Below are positions 16,547 through 58,109 of a stretch of 64,000 nt of DNA, one piece after another (the first letter of the stretch is position 1; every line of letters starts with the position of its first letter). Made by a program: the position numbers and the translations under genes. The notes beneath the pieces were generated by a model. It had not been told where the DNA came from. It searched no databases and saw nothing but the letters and a program-made list of their open reading frames with translations. The stretch lies in assembly GCF_039851975.1 (NCBI RefSeq), contig NZ_CP156660.1, positions 310,001 through 374,000 on the forward strand. Reading direction: 5' to 3'. The DNA is from Desulfoscipio sp. XC116 (GTDB taxonomy: Bacteria; Bacillota; Desulfotomaculia; Desulfotomaculales; Desulfallaceae).

Positions 16547-17596
16547 ATGGTTAAGATTTTTCAGGACGTTTTGCGTTTGCTGGAGCAGGGTGAAAGTTTT
16601 GTTCTAGCCACTATTCTAGCCAATTACGGCTCTACCCCGCGCACGGCGGGATCTAAAATGATCATCCGCTGGGACGGTTCAATTATCGGTACCATTGGCG
16701 GCGGTTTGGTGGAAGCCAAGGTTATTGAGCTGGCTGCCCGGGTTATGACAGAGGGGAAAGCTCTGGTTAAAGAGTTTAATTTGAACAAAAAAATCACCGA
16801 TAAGATGGACATGATTTGTGGTGGTCACCTTAAAATACTATTGGATTATATGAGTGCGGAAAATGTAGATTTATTGGAGATTTATCGTTCACTGGGCGAT
16901 GCCGTGACAGCCGGGCGGAGGGCTGTGCTGATCAGCCCCGTTCCCGACGGAGAGGTGGATACATCCGCCGGAAGGCAGTGCCTGGTGGTTGCGGAAAGAC
17001 AGCCGGTGGGCACATTTTCCCCGCAACCGGCTGAAATGGATGAGCTGCTGCGCGTGGCCGACAGCCGCTATCCACAGGTGGTGACTTTGGGGGACCGCAG
17101 TTTTCTGGTGGAACAAATCAGCAGTTATGGCACTGTCTATATTTTCGGTGCCGGTCATGTGTCACTGCAAGTAGCCCGGCTGGCCAAAACAGCGGATTTC
17201 AAAGTGGTGGTGCTTGATGACCGGCCGGAATTTGCCAACCGGGAGCGGTTTCCCGATGCCGACATGACGATGGTATTGCCTGGTTTGACTGCGGATTTGG
17301 GTGAGTTGGGAGTTGACAAAGATAGCTACGTGGTCATAGTAACCCGGGGCCATGCGCATGATAGAACAGTGCTGGCACTGGCGCTGCGTTCCAAAGCCTG
17401 CTATATAGGGATGATCGGCAGCAAAACCAAGCGGGATGCTATCTACAAGGCATTAAGAAATGAGGGTTACGATAGTGCGGAGCTGGCGCTGGTGCACAGC
17501 CCCATTGGTTTGTCCATCGGTGCCCAAACACCTGAAGAAATTGCCGTGAGTATAGTGGGTGAATTAATCAAATTCAGAGCGGAGCGTATGTTATGA
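16547..17596 (+). CDS. XdhC/CoxI family molybdoenzyme maturation protein
   Basis: The 349-residue protein has the XdhC_CoxI N-terminal domain (TAGSKMIIRWDG near 31, GTIGGGLVEAKVIELA about 47-62) and a C-terminal Rossmann domain (YIFGAGHVSLQVARLAK near 201; TRGHAHD near 268). XdhC proteins bind Mo cofactor and help its sulfuration and insertion into xanthine oxidase-family enzymes, here most likely Mop. ATG 16547 has GGAGTTAT upstream. It overlaps the next gene by 4 bp (ATGA). Confidence 0.88.
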   Translation: MVKIFQDVLRLLEQGESFVLATILANYGSTPRTAGSKMIIRWDGSIIGTIGGGLVEAKVIELAARVMTEGKALVKEFNLNKKITDKMDMICGGHLKILLDYMSAENVDLLEIYRSLGDAVTAGRRAVLISPVPDGEVDTSAGRQCLVVAERQPVGTFSPQPAEMDELLRVADSRYPQVVTLGDRSFLVEQISSYGTVYIFGAGHVSLQVARLAKTADFKVVVLDDRPEFANRERFPDADMTMVLPGLTADLGELGVDKDSYVVIVTRGHAHDRTVLALALRSKACYIGMIGSKTKRDAIYKALRNEGYDSAELALVHSPIGLSIGAQTPEEIAVSIVGELIKFRAERML

Positions 17597-19426: not shown

Positions 19427-19468
19427 ATGGAATATATCGGCACAAAAGACGCGGCAAGGGGGAAATAG
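19427..19468 (+). other. 13-codon ORF just before the LuxR gene, perhaps a gene-start remnant
   Basis: ATG 19427 opens MEYIGTKDAARGK then TAG, ending 1 bp before the LuxR start. The sequence resembles the first residues of small MEYIS-KDAA helix-turn-helix proteins found on Firmicute mobile elements, so it may be the stump of such a gene, or a leader peptide whose end supplies the LuxR ribosome site (GGGGGAAATAGC-ATG). It marks the left edge of the accessory island. Confidence 0.3.
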
Positions 19469-19469
19469 C

Positions 19470-21929
19470 ATGGCGCGGACCAAACGGATCAAACCGGAAA
19501 CACTGTTTTTCCCTAAAAGGCTTATGGAGCGTCTGAACTCCATCAAGGCGTATCCGCTGACGCTGGTGGAAGCCCCCTCCGGCTTCGGCAAGACCACGGC
19601 CCTGCGCCATTTTTTCGACTCGCGGGTTTCCAAAACTGCACAGATCATCTGGCATACCTTTCCCGCAGAACAGCCGGATGCTTCATGGAAAGCCTTTTGC
19701 GGGCTAATCGGACTGTTTGATCCGGACAGTGCCCGGCGGCTGACAGCGGTAGGCCCGCCGGATGAGGATACCCTGCCGGAAATCGAGAAGATTTTCCGAA
19801 AGCTCCATTGCGTGGAAGAAATCTATCTGGTGTTGGATGATTTCGCCGCGTGGAAGCTGCCGAACTCCGGCATGTTTTTGACGGCGCTCTCCCACCATGG
19901 CGGCGAGGCCCTTCATGTGGCAGCGGCCGCCCAGCTTCTGCCTTCGACGGCGCAGAGTTCCATTGTGGAGAACAACTGCTTTTTAATCCTGCGGGAATCC
20001 GTGCTTACCTTCTGTACCGGGGATATTGACGCCTATTACCGGCAGGCCGGTATTTCCCTCGCGCCTGTGCAGCTTGAGGAAGTGATGCGGATCACCGAAG
20101 GCTGGGTCATGGCGCTGTACCTCCAGCTTTTGTCCTTTATCGAAAGCGGCCGGTTTGAGGACGGGAACATCCAAAACATGATTCACAATGCCCTGTGGAA
20201 CCGTCTGCCTGCGTTTGAGCGGGAGTTTCTGACCGCGATTTCCATCTTTGGGCGCTTCTCTCTGGCGCAGGCCACAGCTTTGTCCGGCAGGAGCGCGAAG
20301 GAAACGGAGCGGCTCCTGCGGGAAAAGCGGGTGTTCGTCCATTTCGACCGGGAGACCCGGAGGTTTTACCTGCATACCCTGTTCCAAAATTTTTTGACCA
20401 GACAGTTCGAACTGCTGCCGGCGGAAAAACAAAAGGCTGCCTATCTTGCCGGGGGCGATCTGGCGGAAAAGGCCGGTGACCGGGTAAATACCCTGCGCTT
20501 TTATTACCTCTCCGGCGATTGGGAGCGTTTGCTCGCTCTGCCGCTGACCAGCTTTGATATTGCGGATGTGGTGGACGAACACACAAAGCCCATGATACTG
20601 GATATTATGGAGAACACGCCCTTTGAAATCAAGCGCAAATACCCGGCTGCCATGGTGCCGCTGGCCTTTACCCTGTTTTTCCTGCACGAAAATCAAAAAC
20701 TCCTTACTTTAAAAGAGGAAATTCAGCAGGTTATTGAGCAAAGTGATCTTCCCCAAGACCAAAAAAATGCGCTGTCCGGTGAAATGGAGCTGCTGCTGTC
20801 CTTTCTGGAATACAACCGCATTGATGCCATGAGCCGGCGGCACCGCAGAGCGCTGGAGCTGCTGAACGGCCCCGCCACCCTGATCAGTGTCAAAAGCACA
20901 TGGACGTTCGTTTCCCCGTCGGTATTGTATATGTTCTATCGGGAAAGCGGGAAGCTGGACGAGGAACTTTTGCAGATGGACGAGTGTATGCCCTTTTATT
21001 ATACGCTGACCGGCGGGCATGGCAGCGGCGCGGAATTCATTATGCGGGCGGAAGCGCATCTGATGCGGGGCGAGCTGGACGAAGCGGAAATGCTTTGCCA
21101 CAAGGCCATCTTTACCGCCGACGGCAAGCGCCAGAACAGCATTGTCCAATGCGGCTTGTTCCTTTTGGCCCGCATCGTCCTCTTGCGGGGGGATGAGGCC
21201 ATGCTGCAAAACGCTCTTGCTTCGCTTGCGGAACGCTCCCGCCAGAACACCGAGGACTTATGCCGTTATACGCTGGATTTGGCCTGCGGATTTTTGTACC
21301 TGCTGCTTCAGCGCAGGGACGAGGTTTCCCCCTGGCTTGCCAGTGGAGAAATAAACGACAGGCGGCTGGTTATCATGACCCAGCCCTTCGCCCACATTAT
21401 TTACGGGCGCATTCTGCTGGAGCGGGGAGAATATCAAAAGCTGCTTGGGGTCAGCGAATTCGGGTTGGGGCTGTCCTTCATCTTCCCCAACCTGCTGCCG
21501 CAGATTTACATAAAGCTGTACCAGGCGCAAGCCCTTGACGCGCTGGGGAAGCGTTCGCGGGCTTTGGAAGCCGCCGCCGGCGCTTTGGATATGGCTTTGC
21601 CCGATGGTGTATACCTGCCCTTTGCGGAAAATTATGCGGGGATCAAAAAGCTGCTGCCCGATACCGGCTGTGCCAGCAAGGCGCGGGAGAGCATAACGGC
21701 GCTGGCGGTTACGCTGGAGAACGGGCTGGCGGCGATTCGCCGAAAGGTTCCTCTGTCGCCCAGAGAGAACGAAGTTCTCCTGCTGCTGCAAAAGGGCTTA
21801 AGCAATCAGGAGATTGCCGACAGGCTGAATGTATCCTTCTCTACTGCGAGAGCTACCGTCAGCAGCGTTTTGAATAAACAGGGCGTTTCCTCCCGTGAAT
21901 TGCTGAAAAATACGGAAACGAAAAAATAA
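19470..21929 (+). CDS. MalT-type LuxR family transcriptional regulator
   Basis: The 819-residue protein has an N-terminal STAND NTPase with Walker A APSGFGKTTALRHF (residues about 32-45), a winged-helix and TPR-like middle region, and a C-terminal LuxR helix-turn-helix (LSPRENEVLLLLQKGLSNQE and following, about 755-812). Such regulators act as ligand- and ATP-dependent activators, as MalT does. Start ATG 19470 follows GGGGGAAATAGC. A short terminator ends it. The genes that follow in the same direction are its likely targets: the double-DUF2442 protein, micropeptides and giant surface protein. Fragments of this gene occur again at 27.88, 27.92 and 30.91 kb. Base and codon style differ from the Mop module, pointing to transfer. 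Confidence 0.88.
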   Translation: MARTKRIKPETLFFPKRLMERLNSIKAYPLTLVEAPSGFGKTTALRHFFDSRVSKTAQIIWHTFPAEQPDASWKAFCGLIGLFDPDSARRLTAVGPPDEDTLPEIEKIFRKLHCVEEIYLVLDDFAAWKLPNSGMFLTALSHHGGEALHVAAAAQLLPSTAQSSIVENNCFLILRESVLTFCTGDIDAYYRQAGISLAPVQLEEVMRITEGWVMALYLQLLSFIESGRFEDGNIQNMIHNALWNRLPAFEREFLTAISIFGRFSLAQATALSGRSAKETERLLREKRVFVHFDRETRRFYLHTLFQNFLTRQFELLPAEKQKAAYLAGGDLAEKAGDRVNTLRFYYLSGDWERLLALPLTSFDIADVVDEHTKPMILDIMENTPFEIKRKYPAAMVPLAFTLFFLHENQKLLTLKEEIQQVIEQSDLPQDQKNALSGEMELLLSFLEYNRIDAMSRRHRRALELLNGPATLISVKSTWTFVSPSVLYMFYRESGKLDEELLQMDECMPFYYTLTGGHGSGAEFIMRAEAHLMRGELDEAEMLCHKAIFTADGKRQNSIVQCGLFLLARIVLLRGDEAMLQNALASLAERSRQNTEDLCRYTLDLACGFLYLLLQRRDEVSPWLASGEINDRRLVIMTQPFAHIIYGRILLERGEYQKLLGVSEFGLGLSFIFPNLLPQIYIKLYQAQALDALGKRSRALEAAAGALDMALPDGVYLPFAENYAGIKKLLPDTGCASKARESITALAVTLENGLAAIRRKVPLSPRENEVLLLLQKGLSNQEIADRLNVSFSTARATVSSVLNKQGVSSRELLKNTETKK

Positions 21930-21989
21930 ATGGACACCGTCCAATATGAAAGATTTATTCCGCACCCTACAATAAGGGTGTGTTTTTTT
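21917..21989 (+). terminator. End of LuxR gene with terminator; copy 1 of a 59-bp repeat
   Basis: CACCCT (21963-21968) and AGGGTG (21975-21980) form a small hairpin followed by seven T. The 59 bp at 21917-21975, including the LuxR stop codon, are repeated with one mismatch at 27916-27974 before the lectin-like gene. The segment may also hold a promoter or operator for the downstream genes. Confidence 0.6.
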
Positions 21990-22037
21990 ATGCCCAGATC
22001 CAATTGAATATGGAAGAACAGGAAAGGAGGAAGGCCT

Positions 22038-22586
22038 ATGGCGGGTAAAAAGTCACGACAGGAAAAGGATATCCCCATGATTCAGACGGTGACTCCCCTT
22101 GACCATTACCGCCTGCATATTGAGTTCGGCAGCGGAAGTGTCCTGGAACTGAATATGAAAAACCGCTTGCGCACTACCCGGTACTATGATTTGAACAGCG
22201 ATGCGCTATTCCGTTCCGCTGTTACGGACGGAACAAAAATCATTTTTGCCGCGGGTAGCAATGACGAGCTGGAGATTTTCGCCAGGGAAGCAGTGAACAT
22301 GGCGATGAAGGCGCCGGGCGAGAGCATGTGCATTCTGCGTATTCAGCCTTTGGACGGCGTACGGTTGCGGCTGGAAATGAAAAGCGGCAGCATCCTTATG
22401 CTGAACATGGCAAACCGGCTGCACACCATCCGTTACAGTCCGCTGAAAGAGCCGGAGGTTTTACAGGCTGCGAGCACGGACGGGGAAAACCTGTTTTGGG
22501 GCGATGTCCTGAAAATCGACGCGGAAGAACTGACGAATCTGGCGCTGACTGTCCCGCCCGCCGGAAAGGAGAATGAAGCCATGTGA
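22038..22586 (+). CDS. Tandem DUF2442-like protein
   Basis: The 182-residue protein has two copies of one fold. The first is PLDHYRLHIEFGSGSVLELN (about residues 18-37) through the segment ending near FAAGSNDELEI. The second is PLDGVRLRLEMKSGSILMLN (about 102-121) ending in LFWGDVLKIDAEEL. The pattern of PLD-Y-L-x-F-x-x-G at the start and W-x-D-x-x-I-x-x-E-L at the end is that of DUF2442, a small domain often found with phage or toxin-antitoxin genes. Start ATG 22038 follows GAAAGGAGGAAGGCCT. It overlaps the first micro-ORF by 4 bp. Function unknown. Confidence 0.72.
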   Translation: MAGKKSRQEKDIPMIQTVTPLDHYRLHIEFGSGSVLELNMKNRLRTTRYYDLNSDALFRSAVTDGTKIIFAAGSNDELEIFAREAVNMAMKAPGESMCILRIQPLDGVRLRLEMKSGSILMLNMANRLHTIRYSPLKEPEVLQAASTDGENLFWGDVLKIDAEELTNLALTVPPAGKENEAM

Positions 22587-22689: not shown

Positions 22690-22770
22690 ATGAGGAAAAT
22701 ACAAACGACCAACGCAAGCCTGAGCCTTGACGAACTCATGGATATTGCCGGCGGACGAAACAGGCTTTGA
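22690..22770 (+). CDS. 26-residue double-glycine leader-like micropeptide
   Basis: ATG 22690 encodes MRKIQTTNASLSLDELMDIA then GGRNRL and stop. The segment LSLDELMDIAGG fits the double-glycine leader rule of bacteriocin and RiPP precursors (LSxxEL-x-x-I-x-GG), with cleavage expected after GG. The product after cleavage would be only RNRL, so this is either a tiny signal or a leader acting by itself. No PCAT transporter or modifying enzyme is in the window. Weak RBS AAGGGC just upstream, 5 bp after the previous stop. Confidence 0.5.
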   Translation: MRKIQTTNASLSLDELMDIAGGRNRL

Positions 22771-22801: not shown

Positions 22802-25800
22802 ATGAAACGAACATGGAAACGAATCGGCGGCCTGATTTTGTCGGTGTGCATGATGGCAAGCATGCTGCCCATGGCTGCGTTTGCCGAAACCGGAACAACA
22901 GATTCCGGTACGCCGCCGGTGATCAGTGGTGTAATCACCGGATTTGCGGATTTGGATACCGCTGTATCCGAGCAAGCCGTGGAGGCGGGCACAGCCGAGG
23001 AGAAACTTGACCTGCCGGATAAATTGACGGCAACTGTCACCACCGGCTCAGCGATTACGGCTGACGTAAGCGATGATGATGCCGCGGTGGACAGCGACGC
23101 GCAGCAACCCGAAACACCGGGAACAGAAACCACCGTCGCCATGGCTGTCTACGGCTGGACTTCCGACCCGGTTTATGACGGTAATACTGAGGGGGACTAT
23201 GTGTTTACCCCCACGCTGGATTTGCCGGAGGGCTTGACGCTGGCGGCGGACGTGAGCGCGCCGACGATTACCGTGACGGTGGAAGAAATAACTGCGCTGC
23301 AGGCGTGGGGCGGCATTGCGCCAATGGGCGCAGGAGGGCCAACAGAAGACGGCACTCGCATTTACGCAAACGGTACGCCGGTTGTTGTGAAAGAGGTGAG
23401 TGGCAGCACGAATATGTATTTGGCGGCGGATACGGATTTTGCCGTTCCGGTTTTTGAGGACATCAGCGGCTATGTTATCTATGGCGGCTGGGAGAGTGGA
23501 GATCACACAGGCGATACCTCGCTCACCATTCTTTCCGGCACGTTTAACAAAACAGTCTACGGAGGGAGCCGGGACGGCAGCATAGCGGGTGATACAAATC
23601 TATCGATACATGACGGCACGTTCACCAACCATGCCTATGGCGGCAGCGCGCTGGCGGGCGCAAACGTATCGGGCTGCGCGAATGTAACGGTAGAGAACGC
23701 CACATTCATAAACAGCACCTTGTGGGGTGCGGGCTTCGAGGCCAACACCGTGGGAAGCACCAATGTCGTGATAAAAGACGGCAGCTTTCTATGGGCCTAT
23801 GGCGGCGGCAACGAAGGCTCGGTTACGGGAACGGCAAAGCTTACCATTACGGGGGGGAGCTTTTCCGAAGCGGTCTTTGGTGGCAGCGATAATGCTTCCG
23901 CTTCTGTCCAAAACACCGAGGTTGCCGTTGCGAACGCGAATATTTTCTACCTCTACGGCGGCGGTTGGAGCGCCCCGGTCACAGATACGGCGCAAATCAA
24001 TGTCGAGGGCGGCAACCTTGCCTCCCTCTTCGGCGGCGGTTTATGGGCCGATGTGGAAAATGTAATCGTCCATATCAAGGGCGGCACCTTCCATTCAGAA
24101 ATCTTCGGCGGCGGGTTGGAAAGCGATGTCACCCATGACGTGAGCATGACTATGGAGGGCGGCACCTTCCAAAGTATATTCGGCAGTGGTAACGGCACTA
24201 GTGGCAAAGGTGTAGTCGGCGGCAATGTGGAAATGCATTTGAAAGCAGGCACTTTCCTGGCAACCATTGCTCCGATAGGGGGTATCGACAGCGCAAAAAT
24301 TGACGGCAATGCCACCATCTTCGTCTATCCAGACGCACTCTTTGGCACATATGCGGAACTTCGCACTAACGACAGCTTTGTAACCGGCCGTTCCGCCATA
24401 AAATACGCTGTCGACGTCCAAACGAATGGAGGCGGCACAGCCAGCGCTAGCCCTGCATTTGCGGAAAAGGATGAGGAAGTTTCGCTGACCGCAAGCCCCA
24501 ACGGCGGCTATGCGTTCAAGGAATGGCAGGTCGCCAGCGGTGACGTAACCCTTGCTGATGCAACCGCAGCCAGCACAACCTTTACTATGCCTGCCGAAGC
24601 GGTGAAGCTTACGGCAAAGTATGAGGATGCTCTTACCGACATCACCTTCACGGCAGCACAGACCGGCGGAACCAGCGGCACAGCCGACTCCACCGGCATT
24701 GAGCTTACATTTAGTGAAGCGGTAACCGGACTGACAGCCGATAAGATCACCATTACAGGCGGTACCGGCGCAGTCGCCAAGGGAACGCTTTTAGGCTCCG
24801 GCACTACATGGACGCTTGCGCTTTCCAGTGTAACAACGCAAGGCGATGTAACGATTAACATAGCGGATTTCGGAAATTTTCATGTAACCACCGCTTCGCA
24901 GACGGTGGCGGTGTATAAAGGGAGTACGCCTTCCCCTAACCCGCTTGCCTTCACCGATGTTCTGGAATGGGACGGCACAACTCCCGGCAAAGCAAAATGG
25001 AATGCGGTTGTCAACGCTTCCGGCTACAGGGTGCAGCTTTACAGGGGAGGCTTTCCCCTTAGTAGCCCTGTCAGGAGTACCGCCGCGGAATATGACTTTA
25101 CCTCCGCAATCGCAGTGGCGGGAGCCGGAAGCTATACTTTCAAGGTGCTGGCCGTTGGCGACGGATCAACATGGTCTGACGGTCCGTGGTCTCTCGCGAG
25201 TGCGGCATATAACTATACGCCGAGCACCGGCACCGGCGTCACGGTCGGTGGCGTGGCGGTGACAAGCGCCAACAAGGATGCAATTACCGGCAACGGCATT
25301 TCGGGCAGCGTCAGCTACGACCCCGATACTAGAACCCTGACGCTGAATAACGCCTCTGTCCTTGTTGATAACGGCGACGCGAACCGCTCGGCTATCCTTG
25401 CCCAGCAGGATCTGACGATCCGCCTGGTGGGCAGCAACGTTTTGGGTACGGTCCCCACCGGAGTAACAACCGGCTATTCTATCGAAACCGGCGTTTGGGC
25501 ATCTTCATCCGACGTTGTGCTGACCGGCAGCGGAAATCTGACTATTTACGATGTGCACGCCGGTATCATAGGCGAAAATATAACCGTCAGCACCACCGGC
25601 CGCCTTGTCGTCAGCGAGTACGGCTCCGGCTTGGCCTGCTGCTTAAAGACAGACGGCGGCACGCTGACTGTCAACAGCGGTACGCTGGTGCTTATCTCCG
25701 AGACTTCCAACGCGCTGTTCGGCGACAGCATTGTCATTAGTGGTGGCACCATTACCGCCTTGGCCAAAAACGCGGAGGGCGATGGGCATTTTGCCTTTAA

Positions 25801-26440
25801 CAGCGCGCCCACCTTTGGCGCCAACTATCGGCACAGCGTTTACGCGGGCGACAGCGCGGCGACAGCGCAGCTGGTGGCAAGCCCTACTGCGGCAATCTAC
25901 ACCGCCAGCAAGTATGTCAGAATTGAACCGGTGACCTCCGGGGGCGGTTCCTCCTCCGGCGGCAGCACGACCACACCGGATACTGCCATACCGGTTGTTG
26001 CAACACCGGAAAAACAGCCCAACCAGCCGGTAACAGTATCGGCTCCTGTCACAGCGACAGCAGGAACGAACGGCGCGGCAAGCGCGTCCATCCCGGAGCA
26101 ATCCGTAACGGATGCCATCGCCAAAGCACAGGCTGATGCCAAAGCACAGGGCAAAACCGCCAACGGAACCGGCGTTGCGCTGAATGTTACCATGCCCCGG
26201 GGCGCAACCGCCCTGACAGCAACCCTGACAAGCAGCTCCCTGAACAGCCTTGTCGACGCGGGAGTAACCAGCCTTGAACTGAACGGCTCCCCGGTGACGG
26301 TTTCCTTCGACAAAAAGGCGCTGGCGGAAATTCATAAGCAGAGCACCGGCAATATCAGCATTGCTATTGTGCCCAATGCCAACCTTTCCGATGCAGCTAA
26401 AACCATGATCGGCACACGACCGGCAGCTTTACCGATGTAA
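22802..26440 (+). CDS. Giant exported beta-helix surface protein, N-terminal part (frameshifted)
   Basis: The 1212-residue frame begins with a signal peptide (MKRTWKRIGGLILSVCMMAS, cleavage near AFA-E). Then comes a long stretch of GG-rich repeats of about 30-35 residues (GGGxxx...VxGGxF, about 185-520), as in right-handed beta-helix adhesins. Next are an InlB-type bacterial repeat (about 538-608), an Ig-like domain (about 610-705), a fibronectin-like domain (about 712-805) and another beta-solenoid (about 810-1010). The coding potential continues in another frame: after IGTRP (about 26415) the S-layer domains resume at SFTDV. Homologues normally have about 100 or more residues between these points, so a deletion with a frame change has cut the wall anchor off. 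RBS GGAGGG lies before ATG 22802. Confidence 0.8.
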   Translation: MKRTWKRIGGLILSVCMMASMLPMAAFAETGTTDSGTPPVISGVITGFADLDTAVSEQAVEAGTAEEKLDLPDKLTATVTTGSAITADVSDDDAAVDSDAQQPETPGTETTVAMAVYGWTSDPVYDGNTEGDYVFTPTLDLPEGLTLAADVSAPTITVTVEEITALQAWGGIAPMGAGGPTEDGTRIYANGTPVVVKEVSGSTNMYLAADTDFAVPVFEDISGYVIYGGWESGDHTGDTSLTILSGTFNKTVYGGSRDGSIAGDTNLSIHDGTFTNHAYGGSALAGANVSGCANVTVENATFINSTLWGAGFEANTVGSTNVVIKDGSFLWAYGGGNEGSVTGTAKLTITGGSFSEAVFGGSDNASASVQNTEVAVANANIFYLYGGGWSAPVTDTAQINVEGGNLASLFGGGLWADVENVIVHIKGGTFHSEIFGGGLESDVTHDVSMTMEGGTFQSIFGSGNGTSGKGVVGGNVEMHLKAGTFLATIAPIGGIDSAKIDGNATIFVYPDALFGTYAELRTNDSFVTGRSAIKYAVDVQTNGGGTASASPAFAEKDEEVSLTASPNGGYAFKEWQVASGDVTLADATAASTTFTMPAEAVKLTAKYEDALTDITFTAAQTGGTSGTADSTGIELTFSEAVTGLTADKITITGGTGAVAKGTLLGSGTTWTLALSSVTTQGDVTINIADFGNFHVTTASQTVAVYKGSTPSPNPLAFTDVLEWDGTTPGKAKWNAVVNASGYRVQLYRGGFPLSSPVRSTAAEYDFTSAIAVAGAGSYTFKVLAVGDGSTWSDGPWSLASAAYNYTPSTGTGVTVGGVAVTSANKDAITGNGISGSVSYDPDTRTLTLNNASVLVDNGDANRSAILAQQDLTIRLVGSNVLGTVPTGVTTGYSIETGVWASSSDVVLTGSGNLTIYDVHAGIIGENITVSTTGRLVVSEYGSGLACCLKTDGGTLTVNSGTLVLISETSNALFGDSIVISGGTITALAKNAEGDGHFAFNSAPTFGANYRHSVYAGDSAATAQLVASPTAAIYTASKYVRIEPVTSGGGSSSGGSTTTPDTAIPVVATPEKQPNQPVTVSAPVTATAGTNGAASASIPEQSVTDAIAKAQADAKAQGKTANGTGVALNVTMPRGATALTATLTSSSLNSLVDAGVTSLELNGSPVTVSFDKKALAEIHKQSTGNISIAIVPNANLSDAAKTMIGTRPAALPM

Positions 26441-27177
26441 AAATTGGCAGTCCCTATCAACCGTATATTGAATGGGCGTACAAACAAGGCATCGTTCAGG
26501 GCATTGGCAACGGCCGTTTTGCCCCGGACAGAGCAATCACCCGTGAGGAAATCGCGGTGATTTTGGCAAACTACGCCAAGGCAACCGGCTACACCCTGCC
26601 CGTTACCCGTACCGCAGTGACCTTTGCGGATACTTCCGGCATCGGCAGTGCCTACAAAACAGCGGTCACAGCTATACAGCAGGCGGGCATCATGACGGGT
26701 GAGCAGGACAATAAATTCAACCCGAAGGCAAATGCCACCCGTGCGGAAGTTTCCTCCATGCTGCAGCGTTACATCAAGCTGACCATGGACCTTGCCACCG
26801 CGCAGGGCTGGGTGCTGAACGATGACGGACAATGGCTGTATTGTAGAAACGGTAAAGCCCTCACCGAAACGCAGACCATCGGCGGCATGAAATATTTCTT
26901 CAATGCGGACGGTTCTCTGAAAAGCGGTTGGGTGAAAGATAATGCAGGGAACTGGCGTTTCTATTCCGGCAAGACCATGCTGGTCGGTTTTGAGGATTTG
27001 GGCGTCAGCGGCAACAATAAGACCTACTATTTCAACAAGGACGGCATCATGGTTGCCGGAAAATGGCTGGAGATCGACGGCAAATGGTACTACTTCAACA
27101 CTGACGGTACCCTTGCCAAGAACACCAAAATCGACAACTACGAAGTCGATGAAAACGGCGTAAGAAAAACAAACTAG
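26416..27177 (+). pseudogene. Detached C-terminal part: two S-layer homology domains and cell-wall-binding repeats
   Basis: This frame has no start of its own at its natural beginning; the first ATG is at 26557. It encodes SLH domain one (SFTDVKIGSP... YIEWAYKQGIVQGIGNGRFA), SLH domain two (VTFADTSGIG... IMTGEQDNKFNP), and three or four choline/glucan-binding type repeats (WVKDNAGNWRFY, WLEIDGKWYYFNTDG). It is the wall anchor of the 22802 protein, out of frame by one base relative to it. It ends in a strong terminator. Pseudogene is the simplest reading. Ribosomal frameshifting is not excluded, but no slippery site is obvious. Confidence 0.75.
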
Positions 27178-27191
27178 TTATTGAATCAAAA

Positions 27192-27239
27192 AACAGCGCG
27201 CAGACTGAAGTTTACAGTCTGTGCGCTGTTCTTTGTTTT
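27192..27239 (+). terminator. Terminator after the surface protein gene; copy 1 of a 90-bp repeat
   Basis: AACAGCGCGCAGACTG pairs with CAGTCTGTGCGCTGTT around AAGTTTA and is followed by CTTTGTTTTA. The surrounding 90 bp (27150-27239) recur at 29624-29715 with about 7 differences. Confidence 0.88.
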
Positions 27240-27282
27240 ATCAAAATAGACCAATCTCATCTTTCCAACATTATGGAATACT

Positions 27283-27588
27283 TCATTTATCTCTCAGAAA
27301 TCTCGCCAAAAAATCCTGCTTGCTGCTGAAAGCATCCAAAATCTCTATCCTATTATCCTGCAAACGATATACTAAGAAGTACTCATCTTGTATCAATTTA
27401 CGCAGACTATCATCGCCAAAGCGCTTGTCGGTTACACCCAATAAAGGGAATCTTTCGAGTTGTCTTGCGTAAATAACCAAATCGCTCACTACTTTTTCAG
27501 CCTTGGCTGGAGAAAATCGGGCTATGTATGCCTTGATTGATTCAAGGCTTTCGATTGCTTGATTAGACCAACAAATGCGGTATCTCAT
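27283..27588 (-). CDS. RelE/ParE family toxin
   Basis: The 101-residue protein has the ParE/RelE pattern: MRYRICWSNQAIESLESIKA start, a long helix, PLLGVTDKRFGDDSLRKLI core with basic residues, YFLVYRLQDNRIEILDAF strand. It would block replication (ParE) or cleave mRNA (RelE). It overlaps the antitoxin stop by 4 bp (ATGA type), the usual antitoxin-first operon. It lies on the opposite strand to its neighbours, between the surface protein gene and the second repeat unit. Confidence 0.82.
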   Translation of the reverse strand: MRYRICWSNQAIESLESIKAYIARFSPAKAEKVVSDLVIYARQLERFPLLGVTDKRFGDDSLRKLIQDEYFLVYRLQDNRIEILDAFSSKQDFLARFLRDK

Positions 27589-27770
27589 TGACAGAACATC
27601 GCTTCAACCTGCTCTTGAGTATATACTTTGCCTGATTCAATATCTTCGAGCCCGGCGTTAATGCCTGCTTTTAAATATGCATTATAAAGTGCGTCAATTA
27701 GATATTCTTCATCAAACATTATTTCATCGGGTAGTTTCATCAGCATATTAATAACATCGCTCTTTGACAT
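27585..27770 (-). CDS. Antitoxin of the ParE/RelE pair
   Basis: The 61-residue protein (MSKSDVINMLMKLPDEIMFD ... EDIESGKVYTQEQVEAMFCQ) has the C-terminal E-x-G-K-x-x-x-x-E-E/Q-V-x-x pattern of RelB/ParD-type antitoxins that bind the toxin. ATG at 27770 is preferred because AAAGGAG lies about ten bases upstream; the longer open frame to 27872 would run into copied debris. Sits upstream of and overlaps the toxin gene by 4 bp. Confidence 0.8.
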   Translation of the reverse strand: MSKSDVINMLMKLPDEIMFDEEYLIDALYNAYLKAGINAGLEDIESGKVYTQEQVEAMFCQ

Positions 27771-27848
27771 CACCTTCACACTCCTTTGCCTATAGTATAG
27801 CATAAAAAGACACTTATTCATTATAGTCACCAAGGGAACCCTTGTAGG

Positions 27849-27974
27849 GAAATGACTGGAGATCGACGGCAAATGGAGAACACGCCCTTTGAGATTAAGC
27901 GGAAATCACTCCGCCAACGAAAAAATAAATGGACACCGTCCAATATGAAAGATTTATTCCGCACCCTATAATAA
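27849..27974 (+). repeat. Mosaic of three copied fragments from the surface and LuxR genes
   Basis: Three short tracts lie end to end. 27849-27876 copies the wall-binding repeat at about 27060-27087. 27877-27905 copies LuxR codons at 20611-20640 (AACACGCCCTTTGA and flanks). 27916-27974 copies the LuxR 3' end and terminator region at 21917-21975 with a single difference. These sources are not adjacent in the parent genes. A terminator-like CACCC...GGGTG hairpin with T-rich tail follows at 27962-27993. The simplest account is a second LuxR unit that lost most of its body by deletion, leaving the 3' flank in front of the 28041 gene. Confidence 0.75.
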
Positions 27975-28040
27975 AACTGGCGGGTGTATTTTTATGCCTG
28001 CATACAATCAAAAACGAAATGAAAGGGGAGCATGCTTATA

Positions 28041-28427
28041 ATGGCTAAGACAACAACGGTTTACTTGGAAAATGTAAGAAAAAACGACTACATGTGCTGG
28101 CATATATGCTCGCAATGCCTTAACACGGGAAAGATTGTACTTCGGGATGACAGTACAGTTTATCTCATGGTTGAAAAGAATACAAAAAGCACATCAATCC
28201 AGCATCTGTCGCAAGGCGCGGATACCTACCGGGGCGGCGCGAATCTTCGCTTCGAGATAACCGTGGACACCACTGCCGAACTGAGGACATCCAATGCCGG
28301 GGATGCGATATTGGACAGCAGCGGGCGCAATGTTGGTTTTATCTATAACTATTGCGTAGAGGACTCCACCGACAACGACTTCAATGATTTTTACTTAAAT
28401 ATCGCTGCTTGGCGTAATAAAGGATAG
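28041..28427 (+). CDS. Small protein with LecB-like calcium-lectin motif
   Basis: The 128-residue protein has no signal peptide. Near its C-terminus it has EDSTDNDFND (residues 107-116), the same spacing of acidic and Asn ligands as the calcium site of LecB/PA-IIL lectins (E-x-x-x-D-N-D-x-N-D), followed by a beta strand and a C-terminal glycine. The same motif also occurs in DUF4114 proteins, so a general calcium-binding beta-sandwich is the safe call and a sugar-binding lectin is inference. ATG 28041 lies ten bases after AAGGGGAG; an ATG at 28032 is too close to it. It sits after a copied LuxR 3' flank and 11 bp before the DUF6765 gene. Confidence 0.55.
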   Translation: MAKTTTVYLENVRKNDYMCWHICSQCLNTGKIVLRDDSTVYLMVEKNTKSTSIQHLSQGADTYRGGANLRFEITVDTTAELRTSNAGDAILDSSGRNVGFIYNYCVEDSTDNDFNDFYLNIAAWRNKG

Positions 28428-28438
28428 GGAGGATTGGC

Positions 28439-29611
28439 ATGGATATCAATTTTCATTATTACGCGGTCAAGGCGGTCGCCAGGAAGGCTGGTTTTGATGA
28501 AGCCGAGGCTCAGGCCATAGCGAGTTTTTCCCAATATGTAGACGACTTCACCGACTGGGTGCCGTTTTTTACTAGAAACGTACCGGAATGGGCGCGGAGC
28601 CTCGCTACAAATGTAGGCTTTGGGTATATGTTTCACCCGGCGACAACAGGCTTTAACAGTATGGCCACACTTGCCCGCGAAGGTAACCAGAAGTGGATTG
28701 TTGCGCCATTTCACTTCATTCCGTCAGCGCCGCTCAATACTTTGCTGGACTACAAGAACTATCGTGTCGCGCCGGCGTATATAAACGTCCCGTCTCTGAT
28801 TAGCAACATGCTGGAGGAAGCCAGATTGGAACTGGCGCATCCCGCGGCGGCACGTCCCGCGGTGCTGATGAAAATCGGGATGCTTCTTCATATTTTTGCG
28901 GACACTTACTCGCATCAGCGTTTTTCCGGATTTTGGAGCTGGGTAAATCACAGCAAGCTAACCAGCGTGATCGAAAATGACGACGCGGGCGCTGATGTCG
29001 ATATAACCGCCTCCTATTCCCCCGATGATTATTACAAGATCACGTCCATTGGTCACGCAAATGTCAACCACGCGCCGGACGACAGCAATGTCAGATTTTC
29101 GATGCTTCAAAAGGCGGCGGAGGGGGATGGCGAAGAAACCGTACCCTACACAAGGAGCAACACGGCGGACTTTATCGACGCGGCGGAGCAGATTATGATC
29201 TTTCTTCGGAACTGCCGCGGCTTGCCCCCCATAGTTGAGGCCGAGTGGGGGCCTTTTCGGGATCGCTTCAGGCTGGGGCTGCTCACCGCGCTTAAAGAAA
29301 CGGCGGCGTTGGGTGGCCACTGGCACGGAATATTCCCAGAGTATGAGTTCCATTATGAAAAGGATACTCTTTTACAGGGGCTGGCGGCCGCGATCCCCCT
29401 TGAAGGGGAGGCCAGAAGATTTTCGGAAGCGCATGGTATCGAGCCGCAGTTGAGAACGGCGACGAGCGACACGTATTTTCGCTACAACGTAATCGCAGAC
29501 CAAATCCGCCGTATGGTGGTTGGCGAAGTACACGCGCCCGGACACGTTGAGGAACTGAGAGCGGAAGCGAGGGCGGTATTCGGCGCGGCTGCGCCGGCAA
29601 ATTCAAGATAA
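28439..29611 (+). CDS. DUF6765-like protein, predicted metal-dependent helical hydrolase fold
   Basis: The 390-residue protein starts MDINFHYYAVKAVARKAGFD and soon shows ASFSQYVDDFTDW. This fits DUF6765 proteins, which begin with a conserved H and an AQYVDD motif. HIFADTYSHQRFSG near residue 150 places His, Asp and His as in zinc phospholipase C/S1-P1 nuclease-type helical metalloenzymes. Further His occur at GHANVNH near 203 and GHWHGIFPEYEFHYE near 293. RBS GGGAGG before ATG 28439. It forms a two-gene unit with the lectin-like gene; its 3' end runs into the copied surface-gene terminator. Activity is unproven. Confidence 0.68.
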   Translation: MDINFHYYAVKAVARKAGFDEAEAQAIASFSQYVDDFTDWVPFFTRNVPEWARSLATNVGFGYMFHPATTGFNSMATLAREGNQKWIVAPFHFIPSAPLNTLLDYKNYRVAPAYINVPSLISNMLEEARLELAHPAAARPAVLMKIGMLLHIFADTYSHQRFSGFWSWVNHSKLTSVIENDDAGADVDITASYSPDDYYKITSIGHANVNHAPDDSNVRFSMLQKAAEGDGEETVPYTRSNTADFIDAAEQIMIFLRNCRGLPPIVEAEWGPFRDRFRLGLLTALKETAALGGHWHGIFPEYEFHYEKDTLLQGLAAAIPLEGEARRFSEAHGIEPQLRTATSDTYFRYNVIADQIRRMVVGEVHAPGHVEELRAEARAVFGAAAPANSR

Positions 29612-29623
29612 GAAGGAGAGAAC

Positions 29624-29715
29624 TGAAAACGGCGTAAGAAAAACAAAATAGTCATTAGATCAAAGAACAGCGCACAGACTGAATTTTACAGTCTGTGCGC
29701 TGTTCTTTGTTTTTA
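29624..29715 (+). repeat. Copy 2 of the surface-gene 3' end and terminator
   Basis: About 90 bp match 27150-27239 with about 7 differences, starting inside the last codons of the surface gene (GAAAACGGCGTAAGAAAAAC). It includes the full terminator hairpin (AACAGCGCACAGACTG with CAGTCTGTGCGCTGTT, 29666-29704) and T-rich tail. It directly follows the DUF6765 gene, so that unit carries LuxR-derived sequence at its 5' side and surface-gene-derived sequence at its 3' side. Confidence 0.85.
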
Positions 29716-29766
29716 TGTCGGATTGATGTTTGCTTTGATGTTGTTGGCGTTTGCTTTCATGGCTTT

Positions 29767-30906: not shown

Positions 30907-30946
30907 AAGGCTGGGTCATGGCGCTACAAAACATGATTCACAATAA
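30907..30946 (+). repeat. Joined LuxR fragments at the right edge of the island
   Basis: AAGGCTGGGTCATGGCGCT (30907-30925) is identical to LuxR codons at 20098-20116. It is followed at once by ACAAAACATGATTCACAAT, matching 20172-20189 apart from its first base. In the intact gene these tracts are about 55 bp apart, so the copy has an internal deletion. It abuts the 3' end of the DUF364 gene (30948). Confidence 0.75.
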
Positions 30947-34405: not shown

Positions 34406-34460
34406 ATTGATTTCCCCCTTTTATAGTGTTGTTAATAAGAAACAAATTTTTATCGAATTC

Positions 34461-34560
34461 CAAGACTCCCATTTCTATAAGTGGGAGTTCCTATTTTACT
34501 TCAGGTGGGGTAGAATCCCCATCTGAAGCCTTAATGTTCAGCCTTGGCTGAACGAGTTCA
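34461..34560 (+). repeat. Dispersed hairpin-rich repeat, copy 1 (IS200/IS605-type end remnant)
   Basis: Three consecutive hairpins are visible: ACTCCCATTTCTATAAGTGGGAGT, CTTCAGGTGGGG...CCCCATCTGAAG, and GTTCAGCCTTGGCTGAAC, ending CGAGTTCAC. A second copy lies at 58014-58109 (about 85-90% alike by eye). Sequences of this kind form the subterminal ends of IS200/IS605/TnpB elements in Clostridia. No transposase or tnpB is present, so this is a solo end or MITE-like derivative (inference). Confidence 0.55.
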
Positions 34561-57897: not shown

Positions 57898-58013
57898 CGT
57901 ACATCTCCCATTCATAATCCAGCTATAAATAAAACCCACGAGCAGGGAACTCATGGGCTTATTATATGTGCTGATTGTTTATTATTCAATAGAATGGATG
58001 GCTAATCAAATTT

Positions 58014-58109
58014 CAAGACTCTCACTTCTATAAGTGGGAGTTCCTATTTTTACTTCAGGTAGGATGGAATCCCCATCTGAAGTCCTGATGTTCGGCTTTA
58101 GTTCGAGTT
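58014..58109 (+). repeat. Dispersed hairpin-rich repeat, copy 2
   Basis: Matches 34461-34560: AAGACTCTCACTTCTATAAG onward, then CTTCAGGTAGGATGGAATCC...GATGTTCGGC. The third hairpin is more degraded here than in copy 1. Solo end of an IS200/IS605-like element is the preferred reading. Confidence 0.55.

Follow-up and report, generated by a model that had tools for sequence, protein, structure and literature searches.

Within a 64,000-nt window of the Desulfoscipio sp. XC116 genome (4.26 Mb, two contigs), two open genes lie between a second copy of the 3′ edge of a nearby luxR gene and a second copy of the terminator that closes the luxR unit. The explanation we favor, and consider fairly probable, is that a duplicated LuxR unit was eroded to its promoter and terminator around an orphan gene and a DUF6765 gene, which would probably now form a LuxR-driven satellite operon. 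The more interesting part of the finding is the putative switch located at the luxR 3′ edge, which is common to part of the regulator family.

Copied tracts and the genes they frame

The source unit (unit 1) begins with an intact luxR gene (19470–21929, + strand) encoding an 819-aa MalT-like regulator. The product carries a C-terminal LuxR-type helix-turn-helix (HTH; Pfam GerE, 41.5 bits, cut-off 23.5, E 1e-10) and matches both Pfam TPR_MalT (E 4e-9, 36.6 bits) and the NCBIfam MalT equivalog (E 8e-25, 87 bits) below the respective cut-offs of 45 and 537. Next comes the first cargo gene of the unit, which encodes a DUF2442 protein (22038–22586, +; Pfam 25.7 bits, cut-off 23.9), followed by a surface gene with SLH and choline-binding repeats (22802–27177, +). 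Compared to the related loci of Lacrimispora (L020) and a Pelotomaculum metagenome-assembled genome (MAG; L024), the surface gene is broken: about 430–440 bp are missing at 26414–26424, where the reading frame shifts, leaving its two open frames in different registers. A terminator recognized by its inverted repeats (27184–27240, +) closes the unit.

Two short frames were noted in and beside unit 1. Immediately 5′ of luxR, the 13-codon frame MEYIGTKDAARGK (19427–19468, +) looks like what remains of a truncated small HTH gene, and a related Desulforamulus locus (L022) has a similar but longer start, MDYISAKEAA..., at the same spot. Between the DUF2442 and surface genes, a 26-aa frame (22690–22770, +) has by eye a double-glycine-like end, ELMDIAGG, and is possibly the relic of a peptide gene; L020 holds a stretch resembling it downstream of its DUF2442 trace.

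The four copied tracts described in the earlier note were all located, far above chance. The luxR end and leader at 21917–21975 recur at 27916–27974 with one mismatch in 59 nt (58/59), and with gaps the match extends to 21994 and 27998 (90%, E 4e-24), so that copy 2 of the luxR end and leader spans 27916–27998 (+). The surface-gene end and terminator at 27150–27239 recur at 29624–29713 (90 nt, 92%, E 1e-30); by sequence match and inverted repeats, this second copy occupies 29624–29717 (+) and retains a 20-pair stem. Upstream of the copied leader are two smaller relics on the + strand, one of the surface-gene end (27847–27876, equal to 27058–27087; 30 nt, 93%, or 89% over 35; E 5e-5) and one of the luxR middle (27873–27906, equal to 20607–20640; 34 nt, 91%, E 1e-5), which overlap by ATGG (27873–27876). 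A third luxR relic, absent from the earlier note, was found at 30907–30944 (+). Its first part (30907–30925) is identical to 20098–20116 over 19 nt and its second (30927–30944), one base further on, to 20172–20189 over 18 nt, without the approximately 55 bp of luxR that separate them in the intact gene. Counting the intact gene, luxR is represented by three traces; the surface-gene end is represented by as many, including the one still on its gene.

A genome search with 27849–28031 at E ≤ 0.001 returned only itself and the three source tracts, and a search with the 3′ tract returned only its two copies and its own inverted arms. Chance repeats were ruled out, as the tract E values are far beyond chance and the genome holds no additional copies. 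Between the copies, a ParE-like toxin gene (27283–27588; Pfam 45.7 bits, cut-off 23) and a probable antitoxin gene (27585–27773; weak RelB/ParD match, 18.5 bits, cut-off 60) together occupy 27283–27773 on the − strand, with 39% G+C compared to 56% in luxR. Elsewhere in the window we observed a 95-bp direct repeat (34452–34545 and 58005–58099; 86%, 23.5 kb apart, no Rfam match at gathering score) and two molybdenum/tungsten (Moco) riboswitches (RF01055; 701–822 and 5541–5659, +).

On the 3′ side of the copied leader, two open genes, both with a likely ribosome-binding site, lead up to the copied terminator. Leader copy, two genes and terminator copy make up the anatomy of a small operon, and the cargo pair would likely be expressed under active LuxR. 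The first gene (28032–28427, +) encodes an orphan, beta-rich protein of 131 aa. It has no NCBIfam match, a sub-threshold Pfam match only (AHJR-like, E 0.18) and chance-level PDB matches only (E at least 0.25), and a single-sequence structure model is all-beta at low confidence (pLDDT 46). No relative was found at 0.001 in the 397 other genomes of the phylum, in plasmids or, by pattern scan, in viral contigs. The earlier label of this protein as lectin-like was not borne out by any profile or structure match to a PA-IIL-type calcium lectin; the label rests on a DNDFND motif reminiscent of PA-IIL. The second gene (28439–29611, +; 390 aa) was correctly recognized as DUF6765 (Pfam PF20551, 158.5 bits, cut-off 26.6, E 4e-46). 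Among solved structures its product had one chance-level match (E 0.29), and a second DUF6765, 28% identical, lies within a 1077-aa gene elsewhere in the genome. We considered and rejected the idea that the cargo came from a phage or plasmid: pattern scans of viral contigs gave no match, and in plasmids the first gene had no relative and the second had a single distant DUF6765.

The leader and its relatives

The 59-bp tract contains the luxR end with its stop codon, the palindrome TGGAC-N3-GTCCA and a −10 box. In the aligned leaders of the family, a short palindrome directly past the luxR stop is followed by about 20 conserved bases, a hairpin and then T residues. The copy 1 palindrome, TGGACACCGTCCA (21931–21943, +), is a likely LuxR operator on the basis of the leader alignment and family spacing. 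The hairpin and T run behind it (21961–21989, +; −13.0 kcal/mol, z −4.5) enclose the −10 box, TACAAT (21968–21973), which reads TACACT in L022. This hairpin looks like the luxR terminator, since a base change in one arm in L021, a Clostridia MAG, is matched in the opposite arm. The palindrome is centred 31 nt 5′ of the −10 box in each of the two copies in the window, which puts it at approximately −43, a usual position for activators of this class. The 59-bp tract most likely carries a complete LuxR-dependent promoter, with the palindrome as the site that LuxR would bind. A regulated promoter in the shared flank, which the earlier note raised as a condition, is the most likely reading, given the palindrome/−10 spacing and its recurrence in the family, and a single LuxR protein may control both cargos.

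In copy 2 the palindrome TGGACACCGTCCA is unchanged (27930–27942, +; leader alignment). An independent consensus scan of 27240–29760, which returned 7 sites compared to 3.4 in shuffles, ranked as its top promoter-like site 27945–27972 (+), where ATGAAA is followed after 16 nt by TATAAT (27967–27972; 10/12), placing the putative transcription start near 27979. L024 has TACAAT, as does copy 1, so the change to TATAAT arose in copy 2. The copy 2 hairpin (27961–27987, +) has decayed: with matched ends its energy is −8.2 kcal/mol (z −1.1), compared to −13.0 in copy 1, −15.9 in L024 and −16.9 in L020. An unchanged palindrome, a −10 box moved to consensus and a weaker hairpin are expected if the promoter was kept while the terminator, which serves no purpose without an upstream luxR, was allowed to decay. 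Divergence by itself makes a weak case: the promoter tract has changed at 1 of 59 positions and the other tracts at 14 of 159 (p 0.075, not significant). In the luxR and surface-gene relics, comparison with L024 placed five of six differences in copy 2 and left one unresolved.

A single scan of 84,980 species yielded five close LuxR loci, 72–85% identical in the best segment: L020, L021, L022, L024 and a further locus from an uncultured Clostridia MAG (L023). At 1e-30, none of six other genomes of the genus gave a match. The Lacrimispora LuxR is closer to that of the window than the Desulforamulus one is, and the Desulforamulus genome is listed in the window's order. This patchy distribution points to horizontal transfer, by which the LuxR unit was probably acquired. 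Surface proteins with different middles stand behind the same LuxR in L020, L022 and L024. A DUF3137 protein is encoded downstream of the DUF2442-like gene in L023, L021 has a DUF2442 gene with opposite-strand genes beyond it, and in L020 the DUF2442 gene is reduced to a 58-bp trace. The leader occurs once per genome, adjoining luxR, in all five close relatives, some of which are incomplete MAGs; compared to these five, a full leader pattern search found a second, LuxR-less copy in the window genome only. The idea that the leader is common among relatives was rejected, as 3 of 60 genomes matched, our own included, and the two foreign matches spanned 30–31 bp. The terminator of the 3′ flank was not found at the relatives' loci.

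Repeats of other kinds accompany several of these units. In L022, a 50-nt direct repeat (88%; L022:9744–9793 and 16904–16952) stands on either side of the unit, its right copy inside a transglycosylase-like gene and its left copy a worn fragment. A second LuxR/DUF2442/surface locus of the window genome (L036; G000:C1:2815000-2830000) has direct repeats on both sides, of 59 bp (97%), 50 bp (98%) and 30 bp (87%), near genes that resemble sugar-nucleotide and transposase genes. These repeats at first resemble the footprint described here, but we set them aside as an instance of it; the region holds a putative transposase gene, which we take to be REP-associated. At a third LuxR locus (L037; G000:C1:688000-705000), a 2293-aa surface gene contains a 2.2-kb internal tandem repeat (70%).

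For the wider family we sampled 398 genomes of the phylum, our own included, 31 of which had a LuxR match at 1e-60. The geometry set comprised 33 loci, namely the window, the five close loci and 27 distant ones (25–34% identical), leaving out L028, L055, L063, L064 and L067, where the luxR end is missing or misread. A palindrome lies 30.5–31 nt 5′ of a −10 box at 17 of these 33 MalT-like LuxR loci, a spacing that was noticed first and tested afterwards, compared to a mean of 0.60 and a maximum of 4 in 500 dinucleotide shuffles; the other 16 lack it. Without the close group the count is 11 of 27 (shuffle mean 0.53, maximum 3). When all spacings were scanned, 13 loci fell at 31–31.5 nt and 7 at 30–30.5 nt, and 300 simple shuffles gave at most 6 at any spacing. 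A follow-up on 8 more distant loci (24–29%) gave 0/8 at 30.5–31 nt and 2/8 (L088 and L091) at 31.5 nt, counting four without a DUF2442-like gene in view that are probably of another kind. We take a fixed spacing, with slight play, to apply to much of the LuxR family but not to the whole. By rule, the −10 box falls within a terminator-like hairpin at 13/33 loci (L051 lies outside the rule yet folds so), and a DUF2442-like gene lies within 1.5 kb downstream of luxR at 22/33. Behind one related LuxR with the palindrome spacing are Nif11-like leader peptides (L032:4132–4437; TIGR03798, 34.6 bits, cut-off 32.3), with more copies visible by eye; the cargo regulated by LuxR may thus include RiPP precursors.

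Among the 17 spaced loci, the more alike two HTHs are, the more alike are their half-sites (Mantel r 0.85, a value reached in 0 of 5000 permutations), and part of this correlation must reflect shared descent. The window and L020 regulators agree at 398 of 461 positions (86%) in residues 275–735 and at 28 of 64 (44%) in the HTH, and their palindromes show mirrored differences, GGAC/GTCC versus GTAC/GTAC. The window and L024 are alike at 62 of 65 HTH positions and have the half-site in common. L021–L023 have the L020-type HTH and palindrome, though they are less window-like overall, suggesting that the HTH was probably replaced, and the operator changed alongside it, in the line of the window and L024.

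Origin of the arrangement

We propose that a unit of MalT-like luxR, DUF2442 gene, surface gene and terminator, probably acquired horizontally, was duplicated in place more than once. The extra copies would then have eroded through short deletions, one of which may have left the joint that shares ATGG. Whole parts of one copy would remain, namely the promoter at the luxR 3′ edge and the surface-gene-end terminator, which came to frame the orphan beta-rich gene and the DUF6765 gene; these new genes may either have been inserted between the copied flanks or have been moved to the promoter by deletion. LuxR made from the intact gene 6 kb upstream would then bind the palindrome, probably leading to transcription of both genes. 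A tandem array would explain the order of the relics, which runs from surface end through luxR middle and luxR end to the cargo and a further surface end, and the failure to find the terminator at the relatives' loci indicates that at least the 3′ flank was copied in the window's lineage. In line with the earlier note, the flanks are best read as what is left, in colinear order, of a duplicated unit of luxR and surface gene. A single tandem duplication is insufficient to account for the footprint, which also includes the surface-gene relic at 27847 and the luxR relic at 30907.

The same debris could be a dead scar of deleted copies, in which the 59 bp are a lucky survivor and neither gene is expressed, or both are served by another promoter. 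The sister relics at 27847–27906 and 30907–30944 are plainly non-functional, unit 1 itself has a broken surface gene and the lower rate of change in the promoter tract falls short of significance, all of which suit this reading. We nevertheless consider it unlikely, because the operator is intact, the spacing is kept and the −10 box has become consensus while the hairpin weakened, and because two open frames with ribosome-binding sites are followed by a whole terminator.

Separate arrival would also place foreign genes between related flanks: a second related unit already carrying both genes would have entered next to unit 1, its luxR being lost afterwards. Such units do hold different cargo in different genomes and look horizontally spread, and copy 2 retains leader letters that are gone from copy 1. 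Against this, the 59-bp tract is one base off copy 1 and six off L024, the 3′ terminator was not found at the relatives' loci and has only its two copies in this genome, and the first cargo gene is the orphan described above, which makes separate arrival improbable. More improbable still, to the point of being hardly credible, is the working cassette exchange raised in the earlier note, in which recombination at the shared flanks would swap the enclosed cargo under a shared regulator and terminator. That the same luxR leader precedes different cargo across genomes speaks in its favor; however, each of the five relatives has a single leader, and no recombinase was found among the scanned ORFs of at least 80 aa at 27.2–29.8 kb. 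The flanks, 59 and 90 bp long, offer little length for homologous recombination. The expectation that the same flanks would surround different cargo elsewhere was borne out for leaders linked to luxR, whereas flank pairs lacking luxR did not turn up in other genomes.

Implications and relation to known systems

Erosion of a duplicated LuxR unit would represent natural regulon growth that is legible in the DNA, with promoter and terminator copied, the genes of the donor unit lost and other genes brought under an old regulator. The family pattern also gives testable operators for many uncharacterized regulators that precede exported proteins and peptides, and the operator may perhaps be predictable from the HTH. 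We tentatively raise a broader possibility, which we consider less likely than not: that the clostridial MalT-like luxR family carries a portable switch at its 3′ edge, consisting of the HTH codons, the stop, the operator and a promoter within the terminator hairpin. With the −10 box inside the luxR terminator hairpin, cargo would be shielded from read-through and come on only when transcription starts at the LuxR-dependent promoter, and with the HTH and operator adjoining, the two could be replaced together. If so, copying some 60 bp past the stop would suffice to bring any gene into the regulon, as would have happened here, and the cargo would span surface proteins to Nif11-type RiPP precursors. 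In the titles and abstracts of incomplete literature listings, we found no description of this HTH–operator–terminator arrangement.

Setting a gene behind a resident promoter by duplication or deletion with little or no homology is a known route, with the Salmonella histidine genes and the E. coli citrate transporter as cases of promoter capture (PMC11111574). Our locus is alike in that one copy of the promoter tract is at its home gene (21917–21994) and another stands before a different gene (27916–27998). It differs in that the promoter belongs to a dedicated regulator, the terminator was copied too and the donor gene was erased from the copy.

The regulator resembles MalT-like/LAL proteins in size, C-terminal LuxR HTH and, by a sub-threshold match, TPR region; it differs in scoring below the NCBIfam MalT and Pfam TPR_MalT cut-offs, and its likely operator is palindromic, whereas MalT boxes are not palindromes. 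Nor are the heptameric direct repeats reported in one study (PMC5930380). In LuxR-type class II activation, a palindrome centred near −42 to −43 is paired with a poor −35; the palindrome position, counted from the putative start, and the poor −35 look alike here, while the −10 box lies within the terminator hairpin of the regulator's own gene. Finally, DNA-binding domain and operator are reported to co-evolve in the GntR and LacI families (PMC4494728, PMC4052901), and here too the operator sequence tracks the HTH. Unlike in those families, the HTH codons and operator adjoin on the DNA, and the HTH seems to have been replaced between proteins that are otherwise 86–89% alike.
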